Below are positions 48 to 55,743 of a stretch of DNA of 64,000 nucleotides, in pieces; positions within the stretch are counted from its first letter, which is position 1; each line of letters opens with the position of its first letter. The stretch is taken from the NCBI GenBank assembly GCA_008933995.1, contig WARS01003208.1, positions 200,133-264,132 of the forward strand. The letters are read 5' to 3'. The notes below the pieces were generated by a model. It saw nothing but the letters and a program-made list of their open reading frames with translations, was not told where the DNA came from and did no database searches. Both the position numbers and the translations under genes were made by a program. The DNA is from Datnioides undecimradiatus. Its lineage: Eukaryota; Chordata; Actinopteri; Lobotiformes; Datnioididae.

Positions 48-3000
48 ATGTCGGGCTTCAATCTGCTGCATCTAATAACCAAGAGCCAGCCTGTAACTCT
101 GAGGTCCTGCAGTCTTCCCTCAGGTCCACTGACTGGGTGCTGTGTGCCTGCTGTCCTTCGCCTCTGTTAAAGCCTTAAAACCTTGCTGGTGTGTCAGCAT
201 GTCTTGACTGTCCTAGTCTGCTTGAGTTCCGAATAACACAAGGTGTAATTTTCTTAAATTTCATCTTTGATCTTATTAGGCAAAAAATACATTTTTGTCA
301 TGAACAATGCTTGACATCTCCTAAATTTACCCTCTTCTAAACCAAGTTGGTTATTGGACCTCAATACTTTTTAAGTAGCAAGTGATTTGTATTTATAGTA
401 CTATCAAAATGTTTCAGATACTTTAATTATTGCACTGAATGCTTACTGGGCAATTATCTAGCTAGTTTTTCTTAAACTAATGTATTCTGGAGCAGGAGGC
501 TGTACATACGGCTGGCTGAATTCTTGGTGAGAGAGAATGAGAAAGTGTTGACAGTTAAGATTAAGCTTAATCGATGACAGCTAAACTAACTGATCAAAAG
601 AGTCTACATTGCAGTATTTGCAGTATTGCAGTATAAAGAGGGTCTTAGTTATTTTCTGAATGTTTTGACTAGACAGAGCTTTGAAGTTATTATCAGGTCT
701 ATGCTGCCCTCTGCTGGGCAACTCCAAAATTCAGTAATAAAATATTAAAAGACTTAGATTGTTAGAACTAGTTGTCAAAATCCGCAGGGTACTTTTTAAA
801 ATGGTTAATATCTCCATTGAGCTCAGCATCACATTTGCTGCTACACCACAATGAAATTTCAAGTGCTCACCAAGTAATCCAATGATTCACTGCTTTGCTT
901 TCCTGCAGCTTGCATGCACTGAATGGTTTTGGTTGCGTTTACAGTAAATGGTAAAGGTTTTTTATTACTCATAGGTTCTCATAGGTGTTTTATGGAAAAA
1001 AAGATGTGTTTTTTTTGTAGTCTCAGTCAGTTAGCCTTACAGAGCATGATCAAACAGTACTGACTGTCCCTTATGTGGGGAGAAGTGTCAGGGCAGAAAT
1101 TGACACTCAAATTCTGTAATTGCATTAATATGTTCTTATCATGTCTAAAGGAGAGTACCATGAACCACATGAAGAAAGCAATGATAAACATGTATACATA
1201 TACTGCTGTGCTCTATGTCACTTCAGGGAAAGATCATCTTTGATAAAAGGCTCAAACCTCTTCTTTGTTAAAATTCTCATTCATAGATCTTTGTTCAAAT
1301 GAGCCTTTTGGTGGGTACAATTTGATTCTAAATTTGAAAAAAAAAATAAAAATGAAAGCGCAGTTTATTGTAGTTAGTATACTGTAAGTAATGTTTTCTT
1401 CCACCTGCTTTTATGTGTATTGTGTATCTGAGCATGATGTTGAGACTGAGGCAAGCGAGATTTAAGGAATAGTATAATATTATTAATAATAATGTTGATG
1501 CAGCTCTTTTTTCTTCCTACTAACATCATTAGAAGATACTGCAATACTGCATAGTTAATATTTTTTGTCTTCTCTTACTTGCCCTTCAGGCGCACGTAGG
1601 ACTAAAAAGACATGGCCAGTATGCTTTACTCAAGAGGATCTTAGGAAACGCCTCACACCAATGCAATACCATGTTACCCAGGAGAGAGGAACTGAAAGGT
1701 AGGACAAACTGCTGTAACCACAGCCCTTTTGTAGTGATCAGAAAATATTTTTCATTGTGATTTTGTTATGAAAACAACTCCTGCATTAATTTTGCTGTAT
1801 TTTGTATGTTGTCTGACTCTCTGATTTTACAGGTACATTTACTTCTTGTAAAGGCTTTGTATTATAATTTTTCACAATGAGAGGCTGCTATAACTTTTTA
1901 ACACTTATTTTCTTAAGTTCCAGTACACTGTAGTACTATCCTTAGAATTTCATTACTTATCCTCAAGTTTGAATGTGTCTGACGGAAGGACTTTCCCTAC
2001 AATTTCCTTTCCACAGGCATCTCAGTTCACTGATATTACTGAGCCCTGCTATCCAGGGACATACACAAACCATTCCATTTTATAATGTTTCCAGTTAGGA
2101 TGGTTTCTATCATTTTCTGTTAAAAATTGACTTGATATGATTTTCATTAAGATTACGATTAATATTTAGGATTCTTTATTTGTCCCACAAGGGGAAATTT
2201 GCTGAGTTGAGAGCAGCAAGAAAGGATAGGTATGAAACAAGAACAGATTTGGAAGAAAGATAAAAACAGTGAAGGTAAACAAACAATCAATTTGGACAAA
2301 ATAATCAATATGTACAGGTAGTTGGAGATAGAGAAGTGTATTGCATGTGAGTGTAGTTTAAATTGCAAATCTGACTCATATAGTCAATTAAAATTAGTGC
2401 AGCATGTCATTGTTTTTGTAATCCAGCACATGAAGCTGGTGTCATCCACAAACAGAGATTACTCTATGTTAGGGTCTGTAGTCAGTAGAGCAGTTTTAAC
2501 AGGGGGGAACTGAGCACACAGTCTTGGGGTTACTGATTGTCATTGTAAGAACACATCAAATACAACATACCAGCCAACTTAGACCCTCACCAGTTGGCTT
2601 TCAGAACCATCAGCTCCACACTTCCCTCGATTCAGTTTTCAAACACCTTAATAATTACATCATCTACATCAGAATGCTGTTTTTTTAAATTTCAACATAA
2701 CATGCAACCACTCCCATGAAACTGACTGGTAAACTTGTCACTCTATACTTGAGAATGATAATGATAGCTATTTTCCACAGTGCCTTCACTGGAGAGTTCA
2801 CTCACCATAAGGATGAAGGGACCTACACTTGTATTGTCTGTGGAGCCATGCTGTTTAGGTAAGAGTTCCACTGTATGTGTGTGAGCCTTTAATCAAAATA
2901 ATCTGTTGCAATGAAAACCTAAAGATAGTGCCAATTCACAATTCTTCACTCAAATGTAAAATAGTAACGTAACAAAGATCAGACAGTTGTTTTTAAAATG

Positions 3001-4302
3001 TGTAATTAGCATTTTTGTAATTGACTTTTTTTTTCTTTTTTTTCTAGCTCTGATACTAAATTTGACTCAGGATCAGGTAAGCTAAACCACTGCAACCCCC
3101 ACTGTGCAGCATCTCAACTGCTTTTTTCTCTGCTCTGTAATCTGTAATAGCTGGGTCTATATTTTTGTATGCAGTGGCTTTTCTGAACCACACACCATGA
3201 ATTTTTCATATCAGGTAATCAAATAAGTGAGTTTATGCAATGCACATACAGTAACTACATCAGTCATGGCTATAACTGATTTCCTCTGTTTGTCTGATTT
3301 TTCTCATGTTTATAGATATATTTTCACATATTAGCCCTGCTGCACTGATTTCTGATTCTGCGCTGATTCTACACTGATATCCAGTGTAAACCAGAGTCCA
3401 ACCTTGTTAGGAGGGTGAACATTTGCCCTGTTTGTTTTGTTGAGATATATGACGTATACAGATGCTGTAACTAATATGAAGTGCTGGATTGTGGATTTGT
3501 TTATGCTTTAAACTGAAGTCTGCACACAGACATAGTAGTCCAATTTCCAGGAGTTCTGAAGAACATCAAACACACAGTATAACTATTGGTGCCTGATAAA
3601 TGATCCCTGACCTCTGCATTCCTATAACTTAATTTGTGTGCTAACATGTTCCTAACATGATATGTTCAGGTTGGCCATCCTTCTTTGACATTGTGAAGGA
3701 GGAGTCCATCAGTACCTCAGATGATTTTTCTTATGGAATGCACAGAGTGGAGACCACCTGCAGCCAGGTACACTAAAAACACTGCTTTGCACCCTAACAG
3801 CATCTACTGTAACTTCTTTACCAGCAAACACCTAACAGAGAAATGAAAACCAACAACCAAAAAAATTTATGAAATAAAAATAAAATAAATCAACAAAAAA
3901 GAGACAATTAAATCAATCTTGATAATGTATTGTTTTGGACCAATAAATGATATTACAGCTAAATCCTGAATCTGGTTCAACCTTTGCCAAAATAAAACAC
4001 AAAGCAATGCAGTGTGCATGTGAGATATACACACAAACCGACATGCTGATGATGCTGATAGTGTATATGAAAAGGTTTTGTTACTAAAATGTCAAGGCAC
4101 TGTATCAGTCTTAATCACTTTATTTCAGTGTGGAGCTCATCTTGGACACCTGTTTGATGATGGACCAAGACCTACAGGAAAACGCTATTGCATTAACTCT
4201 GCCTCATTGGGTTTCCAGCCCAAACACACAGCCTCCTCCACCTCCAGCTCTGCCAATGCGGGAGCTTCAACCTGCTCAGTGGATGGACAGATGGACCTCT
4301 AA
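48..4302 (+). CDS. msrb3: Methionine-R-sulfoxide reductase B3, mitochondrial-type isoform, six coding exons
   Basis: The enzyme reduces methionine-R-sulfoxide in proteins, using bound zinc and a catalytic cysteine. Coding exons read as 48-123, 1590-1698, 2781-2858, 3048-3076, 3670-3767 and 4129-4302, all with AG/GT borders and matching phases, giving 187 aa. The start [16 protein letters not shown] closely matches the N-terminus of mammalian MSRB3 isoform B (mitochondrial). An acceptor-like AG at 41-42 just before the ATG suggests an upstream untranslated exon outside the window. Domain marks: zinc CxxC at Cys79/Cys82 (CIVC) and Cys128/Cys131 (CSQC), the GWPSF block near residue 98, [10 protein letters not shown], and catalytic Cys151 in RYCIN. 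The C-terminus ends QMDL, where mammals have the ER-like KAEL. The first donor reads GTCCAC, which is weak but is supported by the exact family junction (LPSG). Orthology is recognised from memory of the human protein. Confidence 0.96.
124..1589 (+). other. MSRB3 intron 1
   Basis: This AT-rich intron separates the isoform-specific start exon from the first common exon. Apart from A- and T-runs and scattered AT-rich stretches, no coding segment, transposon end or RNA gene was recognised. Confidence 0.7.
2158..2300 (-). repeat. 3' tail of an L2/Rex-type LINE, minus orientation
   Basis: Read on the minus strand, the stretch contains the block TTTCCCCTTGTGGGACAAAT followed by AAAGAA. This kind of 3' end (CCCC, short stem, GGGA, AATAAAG) closes many fish L2-clade LINEs. 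It lies in MSRB3 intron 2. Only the tail is recognisable and no open reading frame survives. Confidence 0.5.
2575..2765 (+). repeat. Degenerate L2-like LINE reverse transcriptase fragment
   Basis: Short pieces in different frames resemble the fish L2 reverse transcriptase segment around LDPHQLAFR, followed by a piece like the IRMLF block. The fragment lies in MSRB3 intron 2, just before exon 3. It is very decayed and no catalytic motif survives, so the call is tentative. Confidence 0.35.
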
Positions 4303-4432
4303 GAGAAAGACTCAAGAAGCTCTGCATGATGACTGTTTCTGAGGACAGATCAGAGTGTACACATAAAATAGTAGGCAGTGTGATTTTGATTCACAATGTG
4401 GAGAAAGAGTAGGTGGTTATATTGAAAAAGAA

Positions 4433-4475
4433 AATAAAGCATGTAGGCATCAGATAGACAGACCAGAGAAATAAA
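4433..4475 (+). promoter_or_regulatory. Candidate MSRB3 polyadenylation signals
   Basis: Two AATAAA hexamers, at 4433-4438 and 4470-4475, lie 130-175 bases after the MSRB3 stop codon. Either could end a short 3' UTR. A longer UTR running into the following AT-rich sequence cannot be ruled out. Confidence 0.5.
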
Positions 4476-4674
4476 CTATATAATCTATCACTAGGCAAGT
4501 CATTGCTTCCAAAACAGCGATTTTGTAGCCACAGTCTGAGACCACATGTATGGAATGCTCACAAATCAATTAATGTGTGTTAAATTCATAATCCTATCAC
4601 TGCCAGTTAAATATCTTTGTATTTCATAGTATACAGTTTGTTTTTTTAAAACGACAAAAGCATGGTGGTGTCAT

Positions 4675-4800
4675 AATTAAGATAAGATAAGATAAGAGTT
4701 CATGTAATTACTCCCATTGCCAGAAGGGGAAAACAGTCCTGTACAATAGAGTTAGATTCATTAGAATTTATTTCAACTTTAAATTTTAGTACATTTTTGA
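4675..4800 (-). repeat. LINE 3' tail with GATAA microsatellite, minus orientation
   Basis: Four units of a 5-base AAGAT/GATAA repeat (4678-4696) are followed by sequence with a GAAGGGGAAAA block. Fish L2-clade LINEs often end in a short 5-base microsatellite next to a CCCC/GGGG hairpin, so this reads as the minus-strand 3' end of such a copy. No coding part remains. Confidence 0.45.
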
Positions 4801-5323
4801 AGGGAAATTTGATACTGAAAGGTTGATTTAACTAAATTGCCAGTCCAAGTGCTCAGCTCTCCAATCAGAAGTGAATGTGCATACAATGACACATTAATTG
4901 TGGTTGAAAGTACTGTGGCCTTTTGGTCACTTTGCTGTATCTGATTCTTCTTTAGTTTTTTATTTCAGGAAATACTTTGTTTTTTCACAGCTTGCATTAA
5001 AACAGTTTATGGATGATTAAAATGTTTAGAAAATTTTTGAAATGTTTGACTTTCTTGTTCAATTTTTAATGCATAAGCATGAATACAGTGTCATGGGTAT
5101 TTTGGAATTAGTAGCTGCATTTGGAAATTAATGCTTCCACAGTTTAAAGCCTGGAGGTGTCCTGTCTGGTCCCACTCCAGTTATCACCAAGACAACTGAA
5201 TGTTTTAATCTTAATTAGTCTTTTTAGCACTAGTGGATGCTACACTTTAAAATTCCAGCTAGACTTTTAGTGACTTGACCTGTTATTTTCATACCTTACC
5301 AAGTTATATCAGATGGGAGCTTT
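4800..5323. other. Intergenic sequence, nothing recognised
   Basis: AT-rich DNA between the MSRB3 3' end and the next transposon. No open frame with family resemblance, no repeat ends and no RNA gene were seen. Confidence 0.6.
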
Positions 5324-9512: not shown

Positions 9513-9894
9513 TGTCATGGTTTTGAGTTGAGTTCTTGTTTTGTTTGTTATTTCATGTTTTATTTAGAACAGTTTTTCCCTTTTATGTTTCTGTGTACTT
9601 GTTTCCTGTCCTTGATTAGTTCATTGGTTTCACCTGTGTCTCGTTTGCCTGCACTCCAGTCTATTTAAATTGTGTCATTTGCTTTGGTCTCTGTTGGTTA
9701 ATTTGTTGTGTTTGTATCCATGTGCCTGCCTTGTTTCCTTGTGTTTTCCCCAATGTTCATTGTGATTTTGGATATTTTTTGGGGTTTTTTTGGATTTTGT
9801 TGCCTTGTTTTGTTTGGACTGATTACCCACATTTTGACCCTGACTGCCTAGACCATCAGTAAGCCTATCTAAAATAAACTGGCATACTGTGACA
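9513..9894 (+). mobile_element. Solo LTR-like segment (fossil)
   Basis: A 382-base C/T-rich segment starts TGTCATGG and ends TGTGACA, giving TG...CA ends. It contains a block like those common in fish Gypsy LTRs (TTAGTTCATTGGTTTCACC) and an AATAAA signal near its 3' end (9872). Flanking five-base sequences are similar but not identical. No internal region of matching orientation is next to it, so it is probably a solo LTR. Old. Confidence 0.5.
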
Positions 9895-46539: not shown

Positions 46540-48050
46540 ACTGGATGCTAGGGGCACTAGAAATACTAGAAATAGAGGTGAAACCAGGGGCACAAGAAAC
46601 ATAGAAGGCACTAGGGACACCAGAAACAAAGGAGGCAATAGGGACACAGAAACTTAGGAGGCACTAGGGGTACAGAAACACAGGAGGCATAGGAGCAGAA
46701 GTTGGTCAGACCACTGACAGTACACTAGAAGAGATACTCACACTAGAAGTACCAGGGGCAATAGGGGCACTGGAGACTAGATTTGGGGAGGCTGCCGACA
46801 GAGACCTAGAATTCAGCTGGACTCTTGATGGGACACTAGTGGCAGGAGTCCACTGACGCACCTACTGGACACTAGGGGCACAAGGAGCACAAGGAGCACA
46901 GGAAACACTAGAGGCACTGAGAGCACAGGAAAAACTAGAGGCATTGAGAGCACTAGAAGCACCATTAACACTAGAAACACTGGAAGCACTGGGAACTAGA
47001 GTTGGACGGGCCACTGACAGAACCAGAAGCCAGCCAGACCCCCAACAGGACACTAGACTGACTGGAAACACTAGGAGCACTAGAAGCACTGGGAGCACTA
47101 GGAACAGGAGTCAGCCGGGGCGCCGACTTGACACTAGGAGGACTAGGACCACTGGGAGAACTAGGACCACTAGGACTGCTCGGATGACTGAAGGGACTAG
47201 AAACACTGGAAACTAGCATGAGACGGGCCAACACCAACTGGATGGATGGAGCTGGAGTGGGACGGGCCACTGCCGCCACCGACTGGACATGTGGAGCAGG
47301 AATCAAATCGACCGCCACTGCTGTCTGGACCTGTGGAGCAGGAGTCCAACAGACAGCCGCTGCTGACTGGACCCGTGGGGCAGGAATCGGATGGACTGCC
47401 GAATGGAGGATCAGGAGTCAGTTGGATGTCAACCAACTCAGAGCCAACTTTAGGAACAGAGTTTGTGAGAGACCGAGCTGGCAAGTACGAGGAACACAGG
47501 TTGATTTTCACAAAAGGCAGGGTTTTATTTACCCCCCAAAATGCAAAAATATATTTTAACAAAAATATATATGTTGGGCCCATAAAGGAGGTCAACTCAA
47601 CAGAACTTACAAACTCAGTTAACTAAACAGACTAACTGACCAACAAAAGACAAACAGACCTCCCTAAACTGAACAACATATATAATGGTTGATCAGGCCA
47701 TTTTCTAACACAAAGGGGTATTACAAACATCAAACACTACCACTTTACAGAAAACAAAACCGGACAATCAGCCTGTCAGTAAAAAATAAATCAACAAATA
47801 GTCTAAAGAAATACTAAACTGCTAACCCCCCCCAATCCCCTTTGGACCCAGCCTCACAGGATGCAGCACCAACAGTACACTCTGCACTGGAAACCCAAAT
47901 TACCCAATAAGGGTTGGGAGGCAGGCTACCAGCAGAATTGATGTGATCAGGCTGGACACCGAGTTGCAGGCTGTTAGCAGGCTGGGGACTGGGAAGCAGG
48001 CTGCTCGTGGAGTCTCTGCTAGCAGACAAGGAAACAGGCTGTAGCGATTG
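46540..48050 (-). repeat. Complex repeat with short-period and 42-bp tandem arrays, copy 2
   Basis: From 46540 to 47220 runs an imperfect short-period array of GGCACTAG/GGAGCACTAG words. From about 47238 to 47410 lies a 42-bp repeat (GGACCTGTGGAGCAGGAGTC type) of about four units. From 47425 on, a block TCAACCAACTCAG and, at 47940-48010, CAGGCTGTTAGCAGGCTG-like words are the reverse complement of copy 1 at 10.9-11.7 kb. Minus-strand frames are Ser/Ala/Pro-rich. Probably a decayed 3' region of an LTR-type element. Broken; class uncertain. Confidence 0.5.
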
Positions 48051-48059
48051 TTTGAGTCA

Positions 48060-49365
48060 GACATACCAAAATATATTACTAAAAATTAACAGTTAATTTT
48101 GTCTAAAATGTAGTTTTATTATTCAAGTTTGTTCCACAAAAGAAAATACGTATTTGATTAACACATTTTATTTTTAAAGTATCCTTATATTTTTCAGTTA
48201 TTTCATTTAGTTTCAGTTATTATCCGTATATTTTTTCAGCGAGGGAGTAATTTTAATGATCTGATTCAAGAACAACAATTTTATTCCACATTCCACATAA
48301 ATGTTCTAAGTCACCAACAACTTAATAAATTGAGTGTGGAAACATCATCATGTGAATGCAAAGGGAATGTGCTCTGGAGAGCTCTGACCTCTACCTGCAC
48401 TTGTGGACATGACCAAGACGCCGCAATGGCTGCAACCATGTGGAAACCTCTGTGTCAAATCTGGTCAGTAACCAGTTAGCAAAAGTAATGAAATAGTGAC
48501 GCTGTCATTCAGCTAAAACAACTTCAGGCTGTATTTTTTAATACTGTTGTGGCCATGCTGTGGTGTGTTAGCCAGCTAGTTACAGCTGCATGTAATGGCT
48601 CCTTTTTAATAAATGACTTAGATAAGGCACGATCAATACCGCTGTCTAAACTTACCAATGTTAGAAATGCTTGTTCTAATACCGCGCAGTGTGCACCTGT
48701 ATGTTAGTTTTTCCATTGTACTTTCCTGTGTGTCTGTGCAGTCTCCATTTGCATGGCCAACCATGACTGCAAACTAATGTCTGCCTGGTGTCTCAGCCAG
48801 CTGTAACTAGCTGACAGACATGCCATGACAAATCCCAGGGTCAAATAATTCCGTGTTTTGGCCCTGTGTGTGTCACCGCCATCTCTGTTCAATACAGGAG
48901 AGAGAGTTGCTGACCTTTTAACGCTAACCTGAAACAATATAATGGGACTGCATTTGGTACAGTTCGTCATTGTAAGTTGCCTTTGTGGAAAAGTAATGCC
49001 AGACGATGTGTGGGCTGGATTTAAAAGCATAAATAAAGAATGACATTTTGAATGTCATCATGAAACTAATAACGTCACTTTAAAATTCCAGTCCCCAAGG
49101 ATTACATATTTAAACATAGAAACAAGGATTTCAGTAAAGATTTTATTTATTCAAGTTTGGGTATGCATTTACAGAGCAACATGTTTTAGACCTTACTTTT
49201 CCTCCCTACTATAATACTACATCATCCTCTTTTTAGTTGGTATCTTATGGGATAGCGATGTCCGTAGGTCCGTACATTTGTGGCTTCATCAAAAGGGGTA
49301 CTTCTCAAGCATTATTGAGTGAAACATGGTACCTTTGGTCGTGGATATTCAGTACCTTGTCTTTA
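48060..49365. other. Unassigned intergenic sequence
   Basis: AT-rich at the start, more balanced from 48360 to 49030. A minus-strand frame of 108 codons (48704-49030) shows no recognisable domain. A mobile element of unknown type is possible because the composition changes sharply at the edges. Confidence 0.35.
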
Positions 49366-49370
49366 TTTAA

Positions 49371-49788
49371 CCCGTTTGTGCCCAAATTTTTTTCAGAGTT
49401 GTAAGGCATATCATTTTATCAGTTGAGTCCCTCTGAATCATGTTATGTATTTATTTTTTCCATTTTGTACTTGTTTTGAAGAAAATAGCATTTTTATGAC
49501 TGGCAACAATTGTTGCCAGTAGTCACAGCTTGTCACTAGGTCAAATGTCACCTAATAATAATAATAGAGAAATTATAATAATAATATAATAATAACAAAA
49601 TGACAATATAGTCATAATAAATAATAACAAAAAGGTGGAGCCTCAGGTTCCCCCTGTACCTTTGTCTAAGTTGTCTACTAGCATATAAGTGGAAAAGTTG
49701 CATTAGTACCTTTGAGATTTTTTATTGTGAGTCAAAAATGACAGTGATACACTTTGGCAACAATTGTTGCTAGTGGGGGAAAAATGGG
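49371..49788. mobile_element. piggyBac-like MITE with internal palindromes
   Basis: The element starts CCCGTTTGTGCCC and ends AAAAATGGG, with TTAA on both sides (49367-49370 and 49789-49792). TTAA targets and CCC...GGG ends are the piggyBac signature. Near the two ends are subterminal palindromes: CTGGCAACAATTGTTGCCAG, exact, at 49500-49519, and GGCAACAATTGTTGC near 49756. Its 418-bp length leaves no room for a transposase. Confidence 0.82.
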
Positions 49789-49989
49789 TTAAGCTTTATT
49801 TTATCCCAATACAAAAGACTATTTTGAGCATAATCACACTTGAAAAGACATGAAACCATAGAGTGTGCTTTTGATGGATGTGATTTCAACATATATTCAA
49901 TATATATTAGTATTTACTGAAAAAGAAATTCAGTCTCCAGTTTTGAAATCACATGGCCATGAGGACATACAACCTCCTTAGAATCAGAT

Positions 49990-50303
49990 TGTGAGAGAAA
50001 TGCACCAAGTAAAATAGTGAAAAATATTCTAAATGTTCTCTCTTGTTTAAATTGTAAAGTGTCTATAATGTCTCTGGCAAATGTCTTGATGACTTGTGGA
50101 ACAGCTTCAGTTTATCTGCACGTCATCAGCTCAGCATATTCCTGTTCAATGATGACATCTTTACAAGAAAAAAACTGTGCTGTTGATGAAGAAGTTAGTG
50201 AATTAGTAGACAAACTCTGTCACTTTAATCCTCTTAGCAGAGCCTTTCGTCCTGATGGCCCATTTTCCATTTTCTCAAAATTTAAGAGGGAAAAATATTT
50301 TAA
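49990..50303 (+). pseudogene. Unclassified teleost multicopy unit, part 1 (N-terminal side)
   Basis: An open stretch (50017-50304) has CGTASVYLHVISSAYSC, VDELVDKLCHFNP-like and FRPDGPFSIFSKFKREKYF segments. From memory this fits the region upstream of the central domain of a protein found in many copies in fish genomes and some invertebrates. It ends exactly where a THAP-family TTAA element is inserted (TTAA at 50300-50303), and the next part of the same protein follows that element. Broken. Confidence 0.5.
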
Positions 50304-50304
50304 A

Positions 50305-51002
50305 GGGGACATATTATGAAAAACACTTTTTATTTAAACTAGTCCTGCATCGTCTCTAAAGCCCACCCACTGGTAAAATGGGGCTCCAACATGCCGTTCA
50401 GATTCAGCTCCTGTTGTTACATTACGACAGGAATGATTTACATAGGCCGCCCTCCTCTGAGTAAAACCACTCCCTTGAGGAGTCTGAGAGGGGGTGTTCA
50501 TCCCACAAGGTGAGGTTCGCTATTTCCAGCGGTAAGCTAGCGGTGTGTCACATTCAAATTGCTCTGTTGCTGGTTGTAAAAACCAACACAAATGCCTATA
50601 TTCTGTCCCAGCCCCAGAAGATCAGAGGAGACCGTGGTTGCATTTTATTTTTTATTTTTCTCAACCATTTCCTCCCACTGTTTGCAGTCAGATTCTGGAC
50701 TATAGCTATAGTGTACAGCTGCAGGCTTTCATTGGGAGCACTAGCTGTGTTGGATACTGGTCATGCACTGCTTTGCACCCTCCCCGTCCATACATCATTC
50801 AGGCAGCCAATCAGCGCAGCGCCTCATTATGATAGCCTCCCCGCCCACTCAAAACTCTGCATAGATAATAAAGGTAGAGAATGGGAGACTGCAGGCCCTC
50901 CTCAGAGGCTGAATTTCTGATTTTTTTGCAAAAAATTTCAAATGCTTGTTTTTGAGACATCCAGAACCTGTTTAAAACAGATTTCAGTTGCCATAATATG
51001 TA
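50305..51002 (+). mobile_element. THAP-family TTAA element (Kolobok-like), copy with finger segment
   Basis: It starts GGGGACATATTATG after TTAA(A). Its right end has lost the last bases but keeps the inner CATAATATG. The body is the reverse complement of the element at 30788-31421. Between about 50545 and 50660 it adds a segment reading NCSVAGCKNQHKC, LYSVPAPEDQRRPWLHFIF. This is the C-x4-C start and the Pro/Trp core of a THAP zinc finger, the DNA-binding domain of Kolobok and P-type transposases. A TTTCCAGCG/GTAAGC donor-like site sits just before it. The rest of the transposase is missing. Confidence 0.72.
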
Positions 51003-51059
51003 TATTGTGGATCCAGAGGAGAACTGCAGTTTTAAATATGCGCCTCTTCTTCAATCTTT

Positions 51060-52017
51060 GCAGCACTAATTATAGTGAAGACTACGAAGACTAAGAACTA
51101 TGTCTTGACCAAACACTTCACAGTTGGTATCCTACCATGATGGTAAATAATTCAAACTAAATGAAATTCATGCTATTGAAGAGTTCTCTATTTCACTTAT
51201 ACTCTATATAGATGATCTTGAAATCTGTAATCGTCTTGGAACGTCACAAAAAAACTCCCACAAAGTCACAGCACTGTATTGGGTGCTTGCTGAAGTACCA
51301 ACAGAAATGAGAAGTACAAACATCAATTTATTTGACCCTCTGTTGCAAAGCAAATGATGTAAAAAAGTTTGGCTATGAAATTAAACTGGAACCTCTTTTA
51401 AAAGATCTCACAACATTGGAGAAGGAAGGAATTTTTTTGCCTCAGGTTGGTACAAATATCAGAAGCACAGTTTTTTGTGTTTCAGCAGACATTCTTGGTG
51501 TTTATTCCTCGAGTGGACTTATTGAAAGCTTCTCTGGCCATTATATCTGCAGGTTTTGTTTTGGGGATCATTTTGATTATCAGCAAGAGGAAGTGGGTTT
51601 GGGAGCTTTTCCACCAAGAATGAAAGAGAACTATGATTTACATGTTAAGCATATAAAGGAAAATCCTGCTCTGCTGCACTGTTGTGGTGTAAAGAAGGGT
51701 TGTCCTATAACAGGGAAATTGAGTTTCCATTTTGTAATGGGGTACCCACTAGATGTTCTACATGACCTTTTTGAAGGCGTAATTCCTTTGGAATTGGCAC
51801 TTTGTCTTAATGTGTTTATCGGCAATCAGTATCTTACCTTGGCAGAACTTAACAAATCCATAACTCAATTTCCATACAGATAGACTGATGAAGACGGATC
51901 ATCCTCAACCTATACCTCCAAATTTTGTCTTTCACAAAAGTACTGGGGGAAAAGCACATGAAAGCTGGACAAGATTATTATCATTCATTATAGGTGCCAA
52001 AATTCTTGGACTATGAT
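51060..52017 (+). pseudogene. Unclassified teleost multicopy unit, part 2 (central domain)
   Basis: Pieces include SLILYIDDLEICNRLGTS (about 51195-51245) and then a 183-codon open frame (51332-51883) with NDVKKFGYEIKLEPLL, CVSADILGVYSSSGLI, the ICRFCFG CxxC finger, and LDVLHDLFEGVIPLELALCL. After it comes a piece like GKAHESWTRLLSFIIGAKI. The order agrees with what I remember of the family. The acidic and histidine motifs (SADI, HDLFEG) may be catalytic, as in Tnp2-like transposases, but this is a guess. Broken. Confidence 0.6.
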
Positions 52018-52760
52018 GTTTGCGGATGACATTGTGATCTGTAGTGAGAGCAGAGAGCAGGTGGAGAAAAATCTAGAGAAGTGGAGGTTTGCTCTGGAAA
52101 GAAGAAGAACGAAGCTTAGCCGAAGCAAGACTTAATATATGTGTGTGAATGAGAGGGACCTGAGTGGAACGGTAAGGTTACAAGGAGCAGAGGTACAAAA
52201 GGTGCAGGACTTTAAGTACTTAGGGTCAACAGTCCAGAGCAATGGGCAGTGTGGAAAAGAGGTGAAGAGGCGTGTGCAGGCAGGATGGAATGAGTGGAGA
52301 AAGGTGTCTACCAGCAAGACTGAAAGGAAAGGTATACAGGACAGTGATGTTGTATGGTTTAGAGACAGTGGCTTTGTGAACACAGGAGGAAGAGCTGGAG
52401 GTTGAAAGATGTTGAGGTTTTCTTTGGGTGTGACCAGAATGGATAGGATCAGGAATGAGTACATTAGAGGGACAGCTCATGTGAGATGTTTCGGAGATAA
52501 AGGCCAGGTTGAGATGGTTTGGACATGTTCAGAGGAGGGATAGTGAATATATTGGTTGAAGCATGAAGGATGCTGAGGTAAGAGCTACCAGGCAGGTGGT
52601 CTAGAGGAAGACCAAAGAGGAGGTTTATGGATGTACTGCAGGAGGACATGAAGGTAGTTGGTTTTTAGGGAAGAGGATACAGAGGATAAGGTGAGATGGA
52701 AGCAGATGATTCACTGTGGCAACCCCTTAAGGGAACAGCTGAAAGTAAAAGAAGAATTTC
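52018..52760 (+). repeat. RTE-like LINE, 5'-truncated 3' end
   Basis: The copy starts at the reverse transcriptase FADDIVICSESREQVEKN block, which contains the catalytic ADD. It continues with YMCVNERDLSGTVRLQGAEV, FKYLGSTVQSNGQCGKEV and RRVQAGWNEWRKV, all of a common fish LINE protein. Later parts lie in other frames, and the 3' end closes with GGGAACAGCTGAAAGTAAAAGAAG-like sequence. A stop after SRSKT and several frameshifts inactivate it. The RTE clade assignment is tentative. It is inserted in the multicopy unit. Confidence 0.7.
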
Positions 52761-52939
52761 GCTGAATGAGTTTGAAAGATATTACTGAGTTTGTAATAGC
52801 TCCTGTTCATACCGAGAAAAGTATTTATTTATGTATAATGATGGTGCCCACCCGTACAGCCGCCTGTTACAGCAGCTCTTAAAATTTTTCTGAACTTTTC
52901 TTCTTTTTGCACTTTTTTAATGTTTCTTAGTTTACTTTT

Positions 52940-54785
52940 TCTAACTGTGTTCAATCTTTGAGGTCTCTATTTACACTATGGATGTCAGGCGTACAAAGTT
53001 TGCTTGGGCAGTTCGTCACCTTTTCAAACACTTTCACATAGACAATGCACCGGAGACGCAGAGACAATGCGGCGCGGACCCTGCGCGCTGCATTGTTTAC
53101 AGTAGAGACTGGCTCTTAGCACTCTGCACCACTGCTGCGCTGACCGCTGAGAGGCCCTGTGACCCCCTGGAACTACGGAGGAGGAGCAGGGGATGCCCTC
53201 ATGCTCTTCACGGAGACATGGCTGACATCACTACACCCGGACTCAGACGCGATATATTAACTGGTGAGGGCGGACAGGACGAAGGAGAGTGGTAAGAGGA
53301 AAGGTTGAGGTCTGGCAGTGTTTGTGAACAATAGATGGTGACACATTACTATTAAAGAACAAGACTGTAGTAAGGACATTGAACTGTTAGCGGTTGGTAT
53401 GAGGCCGTACTATCTACCACGGGAATTTTCTCTGCCAACGCCAGCACAGCTTGTGATGTCCTGCTTTCAGTCACCAGCAGGCTGCAGACACAGCACCCAC
53501 ATGCTCTCCACCTTATCTCTGGGGACTTTAATCATGCCTCTCCATCCGCCACACTGTCCACCTTCACTCAATACATTACCTGCCACACCAGAGACAACAA
53601 AACCCTGGACTTGTTGTATGCCAACACTAAGGAGGCATACACATCATCTCCTCTCCCTCCTCTGGGTAGATCAGAGCTTAACCTGGTTTACCTCCAGCCA
53701 GTGTATAGGCCTGTGTACACAGACAACTGATCCGCACAGTGAAGAGATGGTCCGAGGGGGCTGAAGAAGCTCTTCAGGACTGTTTTGACTCAACTGTGTG
53801 GGATGTATTCTGTGAGGACCATGGGGAGGACATTGACAGTCTCACTCACTGCATCATGGACTATATAAACTTCTGTGTGGAAAACACTGTGCCCATCAGG
53901 ACTGTGCAGTGTTTTCCAAACAATAAACCCTGGATTACTCCTGACATAAAGGCTCTGCTTAAGGACAAAAAGAGGGCCTTTAGGTCAAGAAACAAGGAGG
54001 AGCTGAAAGGAGTGCAGAAGGAGCTGAGAAGGAAAATTAGAGAGGGGAAAGACTGTTACAGGAGGAGGGGATGAGGGGTGGGTCAACGACCTGAACATCT
54101 ACTTCAATAGATTTGAGCAGGCATCAACCCCACCCGGGGGTGAACCACCACCTCACATACTGGATTTTGGATTATTTGACCAACAGGCCACAGTATGTGA
54201 GGGCATGGGACTGTGTGTCGGACACTGTTGTCTGCAGTACAAGAGCACCACAAGGGACAGTTCTGGCTCCCTTCCTTTTCACGGTCTACACTGCAGACTT
54301 CACCTACAACACTGAGAACTGCCACCTGCAGAAGTTCTCTGACAACTCTGCAGTTGTCATCCTTATCACAGATGGGGACGACAGGGAGTACAGAGAACTC
54401 AATAAGGACTTGACTGGTGCCAGTGAAACCACCTGCAGGTCAACACTGGGAAAACCAAGGAACTGGTGGTGGATTTCCGCAGGCACAGAACCATCTCTCA
54501 CACACTGGTGAACATCCAGAGGATGGACATTGAGACTGTGGACTCTTACAAATACCTGGGTGTTCACCTGAACAATAAACTGGACTGGTCAAACCATGTA
54601 AATGCTCTGTGTAAGAAAGGCCAGAGCAGACTTCATCTGCTGCGGAGACTGAGGTCTTTTGGGGTGCAGGGAGCACTGTTGAAGTCCTTTTATGTCTCTG
54701 TGGTGGCATCAGCTATCTTTTACGGACTAGTCTGTTGGAGCAGCATCACAACTGCAGACAGGAACAGACTGAATACTGATATCAG
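52940..54785 (+). repeat. L2-clade LINE with internal deletions
   Basis: The N-terminal region reads IVYSRDWLLALCTTAALTAE and DPLELRRRSRG (52978-53200). Next come endonuclease remains (LRPYYLPREFS and a GDFNHAS-type block near 53520), then the linker ALQDCFDSTVWDVF and NNKPWITPDIKALLKDKKRA (53739-54074). The reverse transcriptase follows, with APQGTVLAPFLFTVY, FSDNSAVV (the usual SDD changed to SDN) and YLGVHLNNKLDWS (54466-54864). Segments are missing between the TWLTS-type block and the endonuclease, and between the linker and the RT. The 3' end is lost. Frames shift several times. Confidence 0.85.
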
Positions 54786-55743
54786 AACATTGCCACAGGC
54801 TATTGGTAGTTTTCCCAGAGGAAAAATTAACTTAATCCAAAGCACCAAAAATATCCTGATTTGATAAGCTTCTTTAGTTAGCCTATGGACTATGCACTTT
54901 GAGGCAAAATAAAGTTTCTTTAACAGAGTTGACAGATGCACAAACAGATTCAGAAATGTATTGATGTCATTTGCCTCAAAGCACCAAATGATGGTAGCAT
55001 ACTATTCACAAGCAAATGTTTTAAAACCAGCAACATGTGTCACTAAACTATCATCTCTTCCATTAGAACTGCTTAATATGGAAATACAACAATCCTTCAA
55101 GAAAGTTTATCCAACACAAACCTCTGTGAAGTTGACTAATGTAGTGACACATTATGGAACTAAATATGCTGCTGGGATGATTTTGCCCTATGGATCAACT
55201 GATTTACATGATGATGATTTTATTGAGATTTCACAGGTTGTTCTTGTAGTCAACGAGCTCAGTTTTATTGTGAGATTACTCAATAGCTGGTATGATGAAC
55301 ATTTTTGGGCATTTATGTGGGAAAATGGCAGTACTGCAGCATAGTGAACCTAATGACACATCCCTTGGCAGCATATTTTCTGGGAGGCAAACATATAGTG
55401 ACATGGAAATGCCACATTATTTGCCAGTGTTAGGTGACAAGATTGAGACTACATGTTGTTGAATTTTCTATTTTTATCTAGATGGATTTGGTTGCCTTGA
55501 AAGTTATTGTAGAACACTGCAGTGAGAGGCTCACAATGTCCTCTGGAATACCAAGCATTGTGGCAGAGTTACATGAGACTGTGAAGGAGACATTTGGACT
55601 CACTGAAGATTTTACACTGCATTATTTGGATGACGACTTCGGTGATTACTTCACACTGCATTCTACAAACCAGACCAGACATTTTCACATACAGTAGTAC
55701 CTACTAAAAATAATAAAGTAAAAATGTTTCGCCAAAAAAAAAA
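54786..55743 (+). pseudogene. Unclassified teleost multicopy unit, part 3 (C-terminal side and PB1-like frame)
   Basis: The frame at 54961-55344 has MSFASKHQMMVAYYSQ, TSVKLTNVVTHYGTKYAAG and LSFIVRLLNSWYDEHFWAF, followed by a PLAAYFLGGKHIV piece near the end of the protein. About 60 bases later a separate frame (55482-55697) has MDLVALKVIVEHCSERLTMS and FTLHYLDDDFGDYFTLHST. This reads like the start of a PB1/ubiquitin-fold domain that I associate with the second protein of the same family. AATAAA (55712-55717) and a ten-A tract (55734-55743) close the copy. Broken. Confidence 0.55.

Follow-up and report, generated by a model that had tools for sequence, protein, structure and literature searches.

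A dead two-gene transposon copy of very probable EnSpm/CACTA type in Datnioides undecimradiatus, with predicted RAG1-like, BAH-like and PB1 folds in its family

A 64,000-nucleotide stretch of the Datnioides undecimradiatus genome (C250:200133-264132, hereafter the window) contains the broken remains of one dead CMC-EnSpm (CACTA) copy, presumably unable to move by itself. Its family very probably falls in the EnSpm/CACTA (CMC) superfamily, as a two-gene DNA transposon of the cut-and-paste kind. By sequence, the copies of this family are dispersed, with a first open reading frame (ORF1) followed by a second (ORF2), CACT inverted terminal repeats and 2-bp target duplications that often read TA. 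The original prediction of a mobile, multicopy unit in which two genes stand next to each other is borne out; its description of that unit as unclassified, without a settled class and an uncharacterised transposon type does not stand, and a class is now settled. The class itself is already known, whereas the domain make-up may be newly noticed. If the BAH-like and PB1 assignments given below hold, they hint at possible ways in which a transposon group abundant in fish selects chromatin targets and assembles its complex, and they add a point of comparison for RAG1 and RAG2, a RAG1-like system whose partner protein is another one.

Copies, ends and known relatives

The copy searches cover this one genome of 581 Mb in 497 contigs. 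A 183-codon frame of the window alone has 62 genome matches at E <= 0.001, itself included, and the unit is therefore above chance. Of the open frames surrounding these matches the longest, with 891 amino acids, is the intact ORF1 of locus L009 (protein P0006), which as query gives at least 67 genome matches (51 of 242 candidates scored); P0007, the ORF2 frame downstream of it, gives 71. Merging matches less than 3 kb apart on one strand yields at least 58 ORF1 loci, from 129 pooled ORF1 matches, and at least 41 ORF2 loci, counts that include contigs resembling duplicates of each other (C288/C289 and C417/C418). At 29 of the 41 ORF2 loci an ORF1 on the same strand precedes ORF2 by no more than 6 kb, the distance being 100 to 900 bp in 22 of the 29. 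The copies are not single-locus in this genome and the PB1-like frame that begins ORF2 is adjacent to ORF1 at sites other than the window. The sequences examined comprise 20 copies and extensions, three ORF2 loci and two last-exon loci, and in many of these copies there are stops, broken frames or elements nested inside.

Element boundaries were taken as the points where similarity between copies of one subfamily ends. Ten of 15 mapped 5' boundaries start with CACTG or CACTC followed by A-rich sequence, and the dinucleotide preceding CACT is TA in 6 of the 10; in C_L013 the CACT stands 8 bp outside the shared boundary. Both ends are resolved in four copies:

B_L012: 8485 bp, target duplication TT
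B_L015: 8068 bp, target duplication TG
A_L011: 11631 bp, target duplication TA
F_L027: 11330 bp, target duplication TA

All four have inverted ends of the form CACT[G/C]...[G/C]AGTG, and their target duplications stop at 2 bp, never reaching 3 bp. Termini that begin with CACT and short target duplications of 2-3 bp are both traits of EnSpm/CACTA transposons.

PMC12730594 defines EnSpm/CACTA elements by a DDE (Asp-Asp-Glu) transposase in which C(2)C and H(3-4)H stand after the second Asp and before the Glu. DDE, C(2)C and H(4)H are conserved in nearly all ORF1 alignment rows with letters at those positions, and the window copy keeps both Asp, the CxxC and the Glu, its His stretch being missing. 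The zebrafish CMC-EnSpm (PMC11202377) also has two proteins, and its 13-bp terminus CACTCAAAAAAAT recurs unchanged at the 5' end of D_L016 and D_L026, copies of subfamily D here. The window copy is degraded and belongs to another subfamily, F, with the terminus CACTCTAAAAAATC in F_L027; the comparison with the zebrafish element covers termini and gene number. SmTRC1 and the animal TRC elements (CACTA; PMC1636069) likewise have a CxxC near the second Asp, 2-bp end repeats and similarity to Transposase_21, which here stays below the cut-off of the model; their termini begin with CCC rather than the CACT seen here, and a different position of the Glu is proposed there.

Predicted folds of the two proteins

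In the predicted structure of the intact ORF1 protein, residues about 283-711 appear to fold like RAG1, the recombinase of antibody genes, which is ranked first by VIA at 12-15% identity in the structural alignment. An RNase H-like DDE core would be common to ORF1 and RAG1/Transib by predicted fold, no sequence match having been found. The second Asp and the Glu are 254 residues apart in mouse RAG1, against 256 here, and both proteins have a His pair 25 and 20 residues ahead of the Glu. The target duplication differs, being 2 bp here and 5 bp in Transib, as does the partner protein, which is of PB1 type here and not RAG2.

The last 130 or so residues of ORF1 (about 747-884 in L009) seem, as modelled within the whole protein, to have a fold like that of a BAH domain. 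Block pLDDT (predicted local distance difference test) is 85-89 over residues 821-860, and the 21 rows among the best 50 fold matches that are neither RAG nor Transib are all BAH-containing, by title or, for DNMT1, ZMET2 and SHL, as established BAH proteins (best root-mean-square deviation 2.6 over 99 residues). Foldseek against BAH chains gives probability 1.00 for several. These features argue against a mere common beta-barrel arrangement unrelated to BAH or chromatin, an explanation to which we give clearly less than an even chance; it draws on the 4-11% identity of the fold matches, on a Foldseek E of 0.019 at best among chains named BAH, and on the absence of BAH both from the three Pfam families matched by 11 rows at E <= 10 and from the PDB sequence matches at E <= 10.

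As originally suggested for the second gene, ORF2 seems to begin with a PB1 domain, its first 79 residues folding like PB1 in the predicted structure. The fold alone does not choose PB1, because ubiquitin-like chains score within 1 Z. The PB1 family of Pfam is matched at E <= 1 by 8 of 20 ORF2 rows (best E 4.8e-5), 9 of the 20 holding no part of the region, and the window frame matches it with E 0.0013 and 19.1 bits against a cut-off of 23.6; ORF2 exon 1 compared with the sequences of solved structures gives nothing at E <= 1. The ratio of nonsynonymous to synonymous substitution rates (dN/dS) in this exon is 0.07 over 44 codons between the window and F_L027. After the PB1 region ORF2 continues in several further exon-like pieces. 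ORF2 co-diverges with ORF1, and the two frames are a long-standing pair.

The multi-exon region might resemble the vertebrate gene SAMD3, but nothing here supports the link: with 150 of 203 candidates scored, not one of the 98 SAM-domain matches listed is less than 70 kb away from any of the 47 ORF2 last-exon matches. PMC7232394, which mentions SAMD3, is unrelated. No description of PB1, BAH or SAMD3 in an EnSpm element was found among the open-licence papers listed, as judged by titles, abstract starts and term counts; a PB1 domain is named in one of them, PMC8616336. PB1 domains such as those of NBR1 and Par6 differ from that of ORF2, which sits in a transposon protein. According to PMC8616336, PB1 is usually not associated with transposable elements, and it occurs on the domesticated MUSTANG genes of plants; MUSTANG-B of flowering plants, as here, joins PB1 to a transposon-derived protein, although there the domain is on a domesticated MULE transposase and here on the separate second protein of a CACTA-type element.

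Class of the unit and role of ORF2

A number of results weigh against a RAG1-shaped, two-gene EnSpm/CACTA element. Five of the 15 mapped 5' boundaries (L019, L020, L028, L021 and the window copy) lack CACT; the 3' ends were chosen via a CACT-type pattern close to where homology stops, a second copy supporting those of B and F and not that of A_L011, and the 3' end of L009 was sought and could not be fixed. Subterminal repeats, a CACTA hallmark, gave no significant signal in the four copies: end scores are above the interior median in all four, yet 18 to 32 of 300 interior samples are equally high. No partner was found at 12 of 41 ORF2 loci and 29 of 58 ORF1 loci; at L039, one of these 12, an ORF1 finger segment missed by the genome-wide search lies directly upstream, and at L037 ORF1 was not seen in the stretch fetched around the locus. 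In 14 recent copy pairs dN/dS runs from 0.22 to 2.40, i.e. weak constraint, in values too noisy to demonstrate it. The comparison with Transposase_21 proposed at the outset gives matches that stay below the cut-off wherever shown, with E <= 1 in 5 of 37 rows (best E 0.0045) and in 4 of 10 pieces scanned singly, all of the latter under the 28.6-bit cut-off, and the best Plavaka match (E 0.0016) is also below cut-off. Sequence searches alone found neither RAG1 nor BAH for ORF1, and Foldseek with the ORF1 model gave no match at E 0.001 or better, RAG1 not being among its best 50 rows. The active site itself is outside the reliable model because the stretches with the Glu and the first Asp are poorly predicted (block pLDDT 37 and 53). 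The intact ORF2 of L009 has no PB1 match in Pfam.

The sub-threshold Pfam transposase matches, together with a sequence-only search of solved structures that found no transposase, could be read as signs of a new, unclassified transposon superfamily. This is very improbable: the ends, the 2-bp duplication, DDE with C(2)C and H(4)H, the RAG1-like fold and the published 13-bp terminus all fit EnSpm/CACTA, and CMC-EnSpm is a named group that in zebrafish numbers 382,820 copies and makes up 4.69% of the genome (PMC4746887). That the several exon-like pieces of ORF2, and the ORF2 loci without ORF1, might reflect a non-mobile host multigene family, the two frames being exons of one gene, is more improbable still, to the point of being scarcely credible. 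It is rejected because copies at unrelated sites share defined ends and 2-bp duplications; many copies, moreover, have stops, frame breaks and nested insertions, and two (in C189 and C4) appear to have internal deletions.

If the EnSpm/CACTA assignment is followed through, the zinc fingers of ORF1 would bind the end regions of the element, the RAG1-like core would cut both ends and join them to target DNA at positions staggered by 2 bp, the complex could be steered to chromatin by the BAH-like domain, and ORF2 might assemble through PB1 into chains or dimers that keep the ends and the transposases joined; the window copy would afterwards have received three insertions and decayed. A scaffold role for ORF2, guessed from what PB1 domains do and by analogy with plant CACTA elements, whose second protein is usually given such a role, falls slightly short of an even chance. 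A regulatory role fits about as well, and its probability too is just under one half: ORF2 could be a regulator, repressor, anti-silencing factor or chromatin adaptor, with a PB1 domain that binds host proteins rather than the transposase complex. PB1 domains do serve host signalling scaffolds, some ORF1 loci have no ORF2 found, and contact of ORF2 with ORF1 or DNA is hypothetical; co-divergence and conserved adjacency suit a partner of the transposase, though they would also suit a cis regulator.

A wider proposal, unlikely as a whole, is that fish CMC-EnSpm elements are two-gene RAG1-shaped transposons in which the transposase has a C-terminal BAH-like chromatin reader and the partner combines a PB1 polymerisation domain with a multi-exon region that would resemble SAMD3. 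In RAG1/RAG2 the chromatin reader sits in the partner, RAG2. If the proposal is true, a BAH-like reader with a PB1 partner would parallel RAG1 with RAG2, and SAMD3 could be a domesticated transposon gene.

The window copy and its insertions

The long relative used for DNA comparison is F_L027 (contig C307, about 36.83 Mb), with which the window shares nine collinear pieces of 76.6 to 86.5% identity, numbered below together with the tblastn alignments of intact ORF1. All features are on the + strand.

48043..48198, +: 5' subterminal part; piece 1, 77.7% identity to F_L027 4710-4865
49225..49417, +: decayed ORF1 N-terminal C2H2-like zinc-finger region; piece 2 (49225-49370); residues 22-67 at 49280-49417, 1 stop
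49798..50303, +: ORF1 region preceding the catalytic core, including the first block of the original prediction; pieces 3 (49798-49889) and 4 (49915-50303); residues 106-282 at 49834-50304, 2 stops
50304..50999, +: inserted element with a THAP-like frame, outside the unit; missing from F_L027 and F_L021
51000..52004, +: ORF1 catalytic core, frameshifted, with the first Asp (YIDDLE), second Asp (SADILG), CRFC and HDLFEG; pieces 5 (51000-51486) and 6 (51677-51997); residues 278-412, 401-595 and 592-631
51998..52770, +: inserted LINE (long interspersed nuclear element) fragment with reverse transcriptase; missing from F_L027
52771..52826, +: ORF1 remnant of 56 bp between the two LINE fragments; piece 7, 85.7% identity to F_L027 9728-9783
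52827..54774, +: second inserted LINE fragment; missing from F_L027
54775..55462, +: ORF1 C-terminal part, with the catalytic Glu kept in MHFEAK and then a stop; piece 8 (54775-55316); residues 668-685, 702-857 and 868-889
55482..55697, +: ORF2 exon 1, PB1 domain only; piece 9 (55542-55674), 86.5% identity

This collinearity supports the original joining of three separated blocks as consecutive parts of one unit, and the frames lie where they had been placed: 118 amino acids at 49963-50319, YIDDLEICNRLGTS within 51151-51357, the frame with the CxxC and HDLFEG motifs at 51311-51883 (183 codons when counted from 51332), that of the ORF1 C-terminus at 54913-55344, and, directly after the large protein, the PB1-like frame, 19 bp beyond the stop at 55462 that ends ORF1. 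The extent first given needs correction: homology runs from 48043, so the unit starts about 1.9 kb earlier, and the 56-bp piece had gone unlisted. That start is 83 bp inside the 5' end of the element (F_L027 5' terminus at 4627), and homology of ORF2 to F_L027 stops at 55674; an element terminus sought on both sides of the copy was not found, including any 5' CACT. Stops and frame breaks occur in several pieces. The C-terminal part includes the region that is BAH-like in the predicted fold of the intact relative.

The nesting is real too: of the three insertions in the copy, one is a THAP-like element and the other two are LINE fragments separate from each other. The THAP Pfam match (E 0.011) is below cut-off, and a single 10-nt inverted pair, 50309-50318 / 50992-51001, accompanies this insertion. 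RVT_1 matches, both below cut-off, have E 5.1e-5 in the frame 51962-52135 of the first LINE fragment and E 0.009 at 54095-54511 in the second, which also has an ALKBH8_N match (E 3.6e-5) in 54427-54864.

A second, decayed ORF2 remnant on the - strand (C250:264796-265245), 664 bp past the right end of the window, has 35% identity to P0007 residues 125-273. L040, L041, C477:1031932 and C467:8384470 form a further subfamily, with the last ORF2 exon in several copies of equal match scores; L041 shares 2.6 kb at 95% with L040, lacks the ORF1 piece of the latter and is perhaps a non-autonomous derivative. At C189:179089-180108 and C4:1837768-1838808, with equal ORF2 scores, an N-terminal ORF1 piece (residues about 80-210) abuts mid-ORF2, as after internal deletion. 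At L014 (oriented 76-4512) a long frame of a long terminal repeat retrotransposon, gypsy-type by eye, adjoins a D-subfamily copy.

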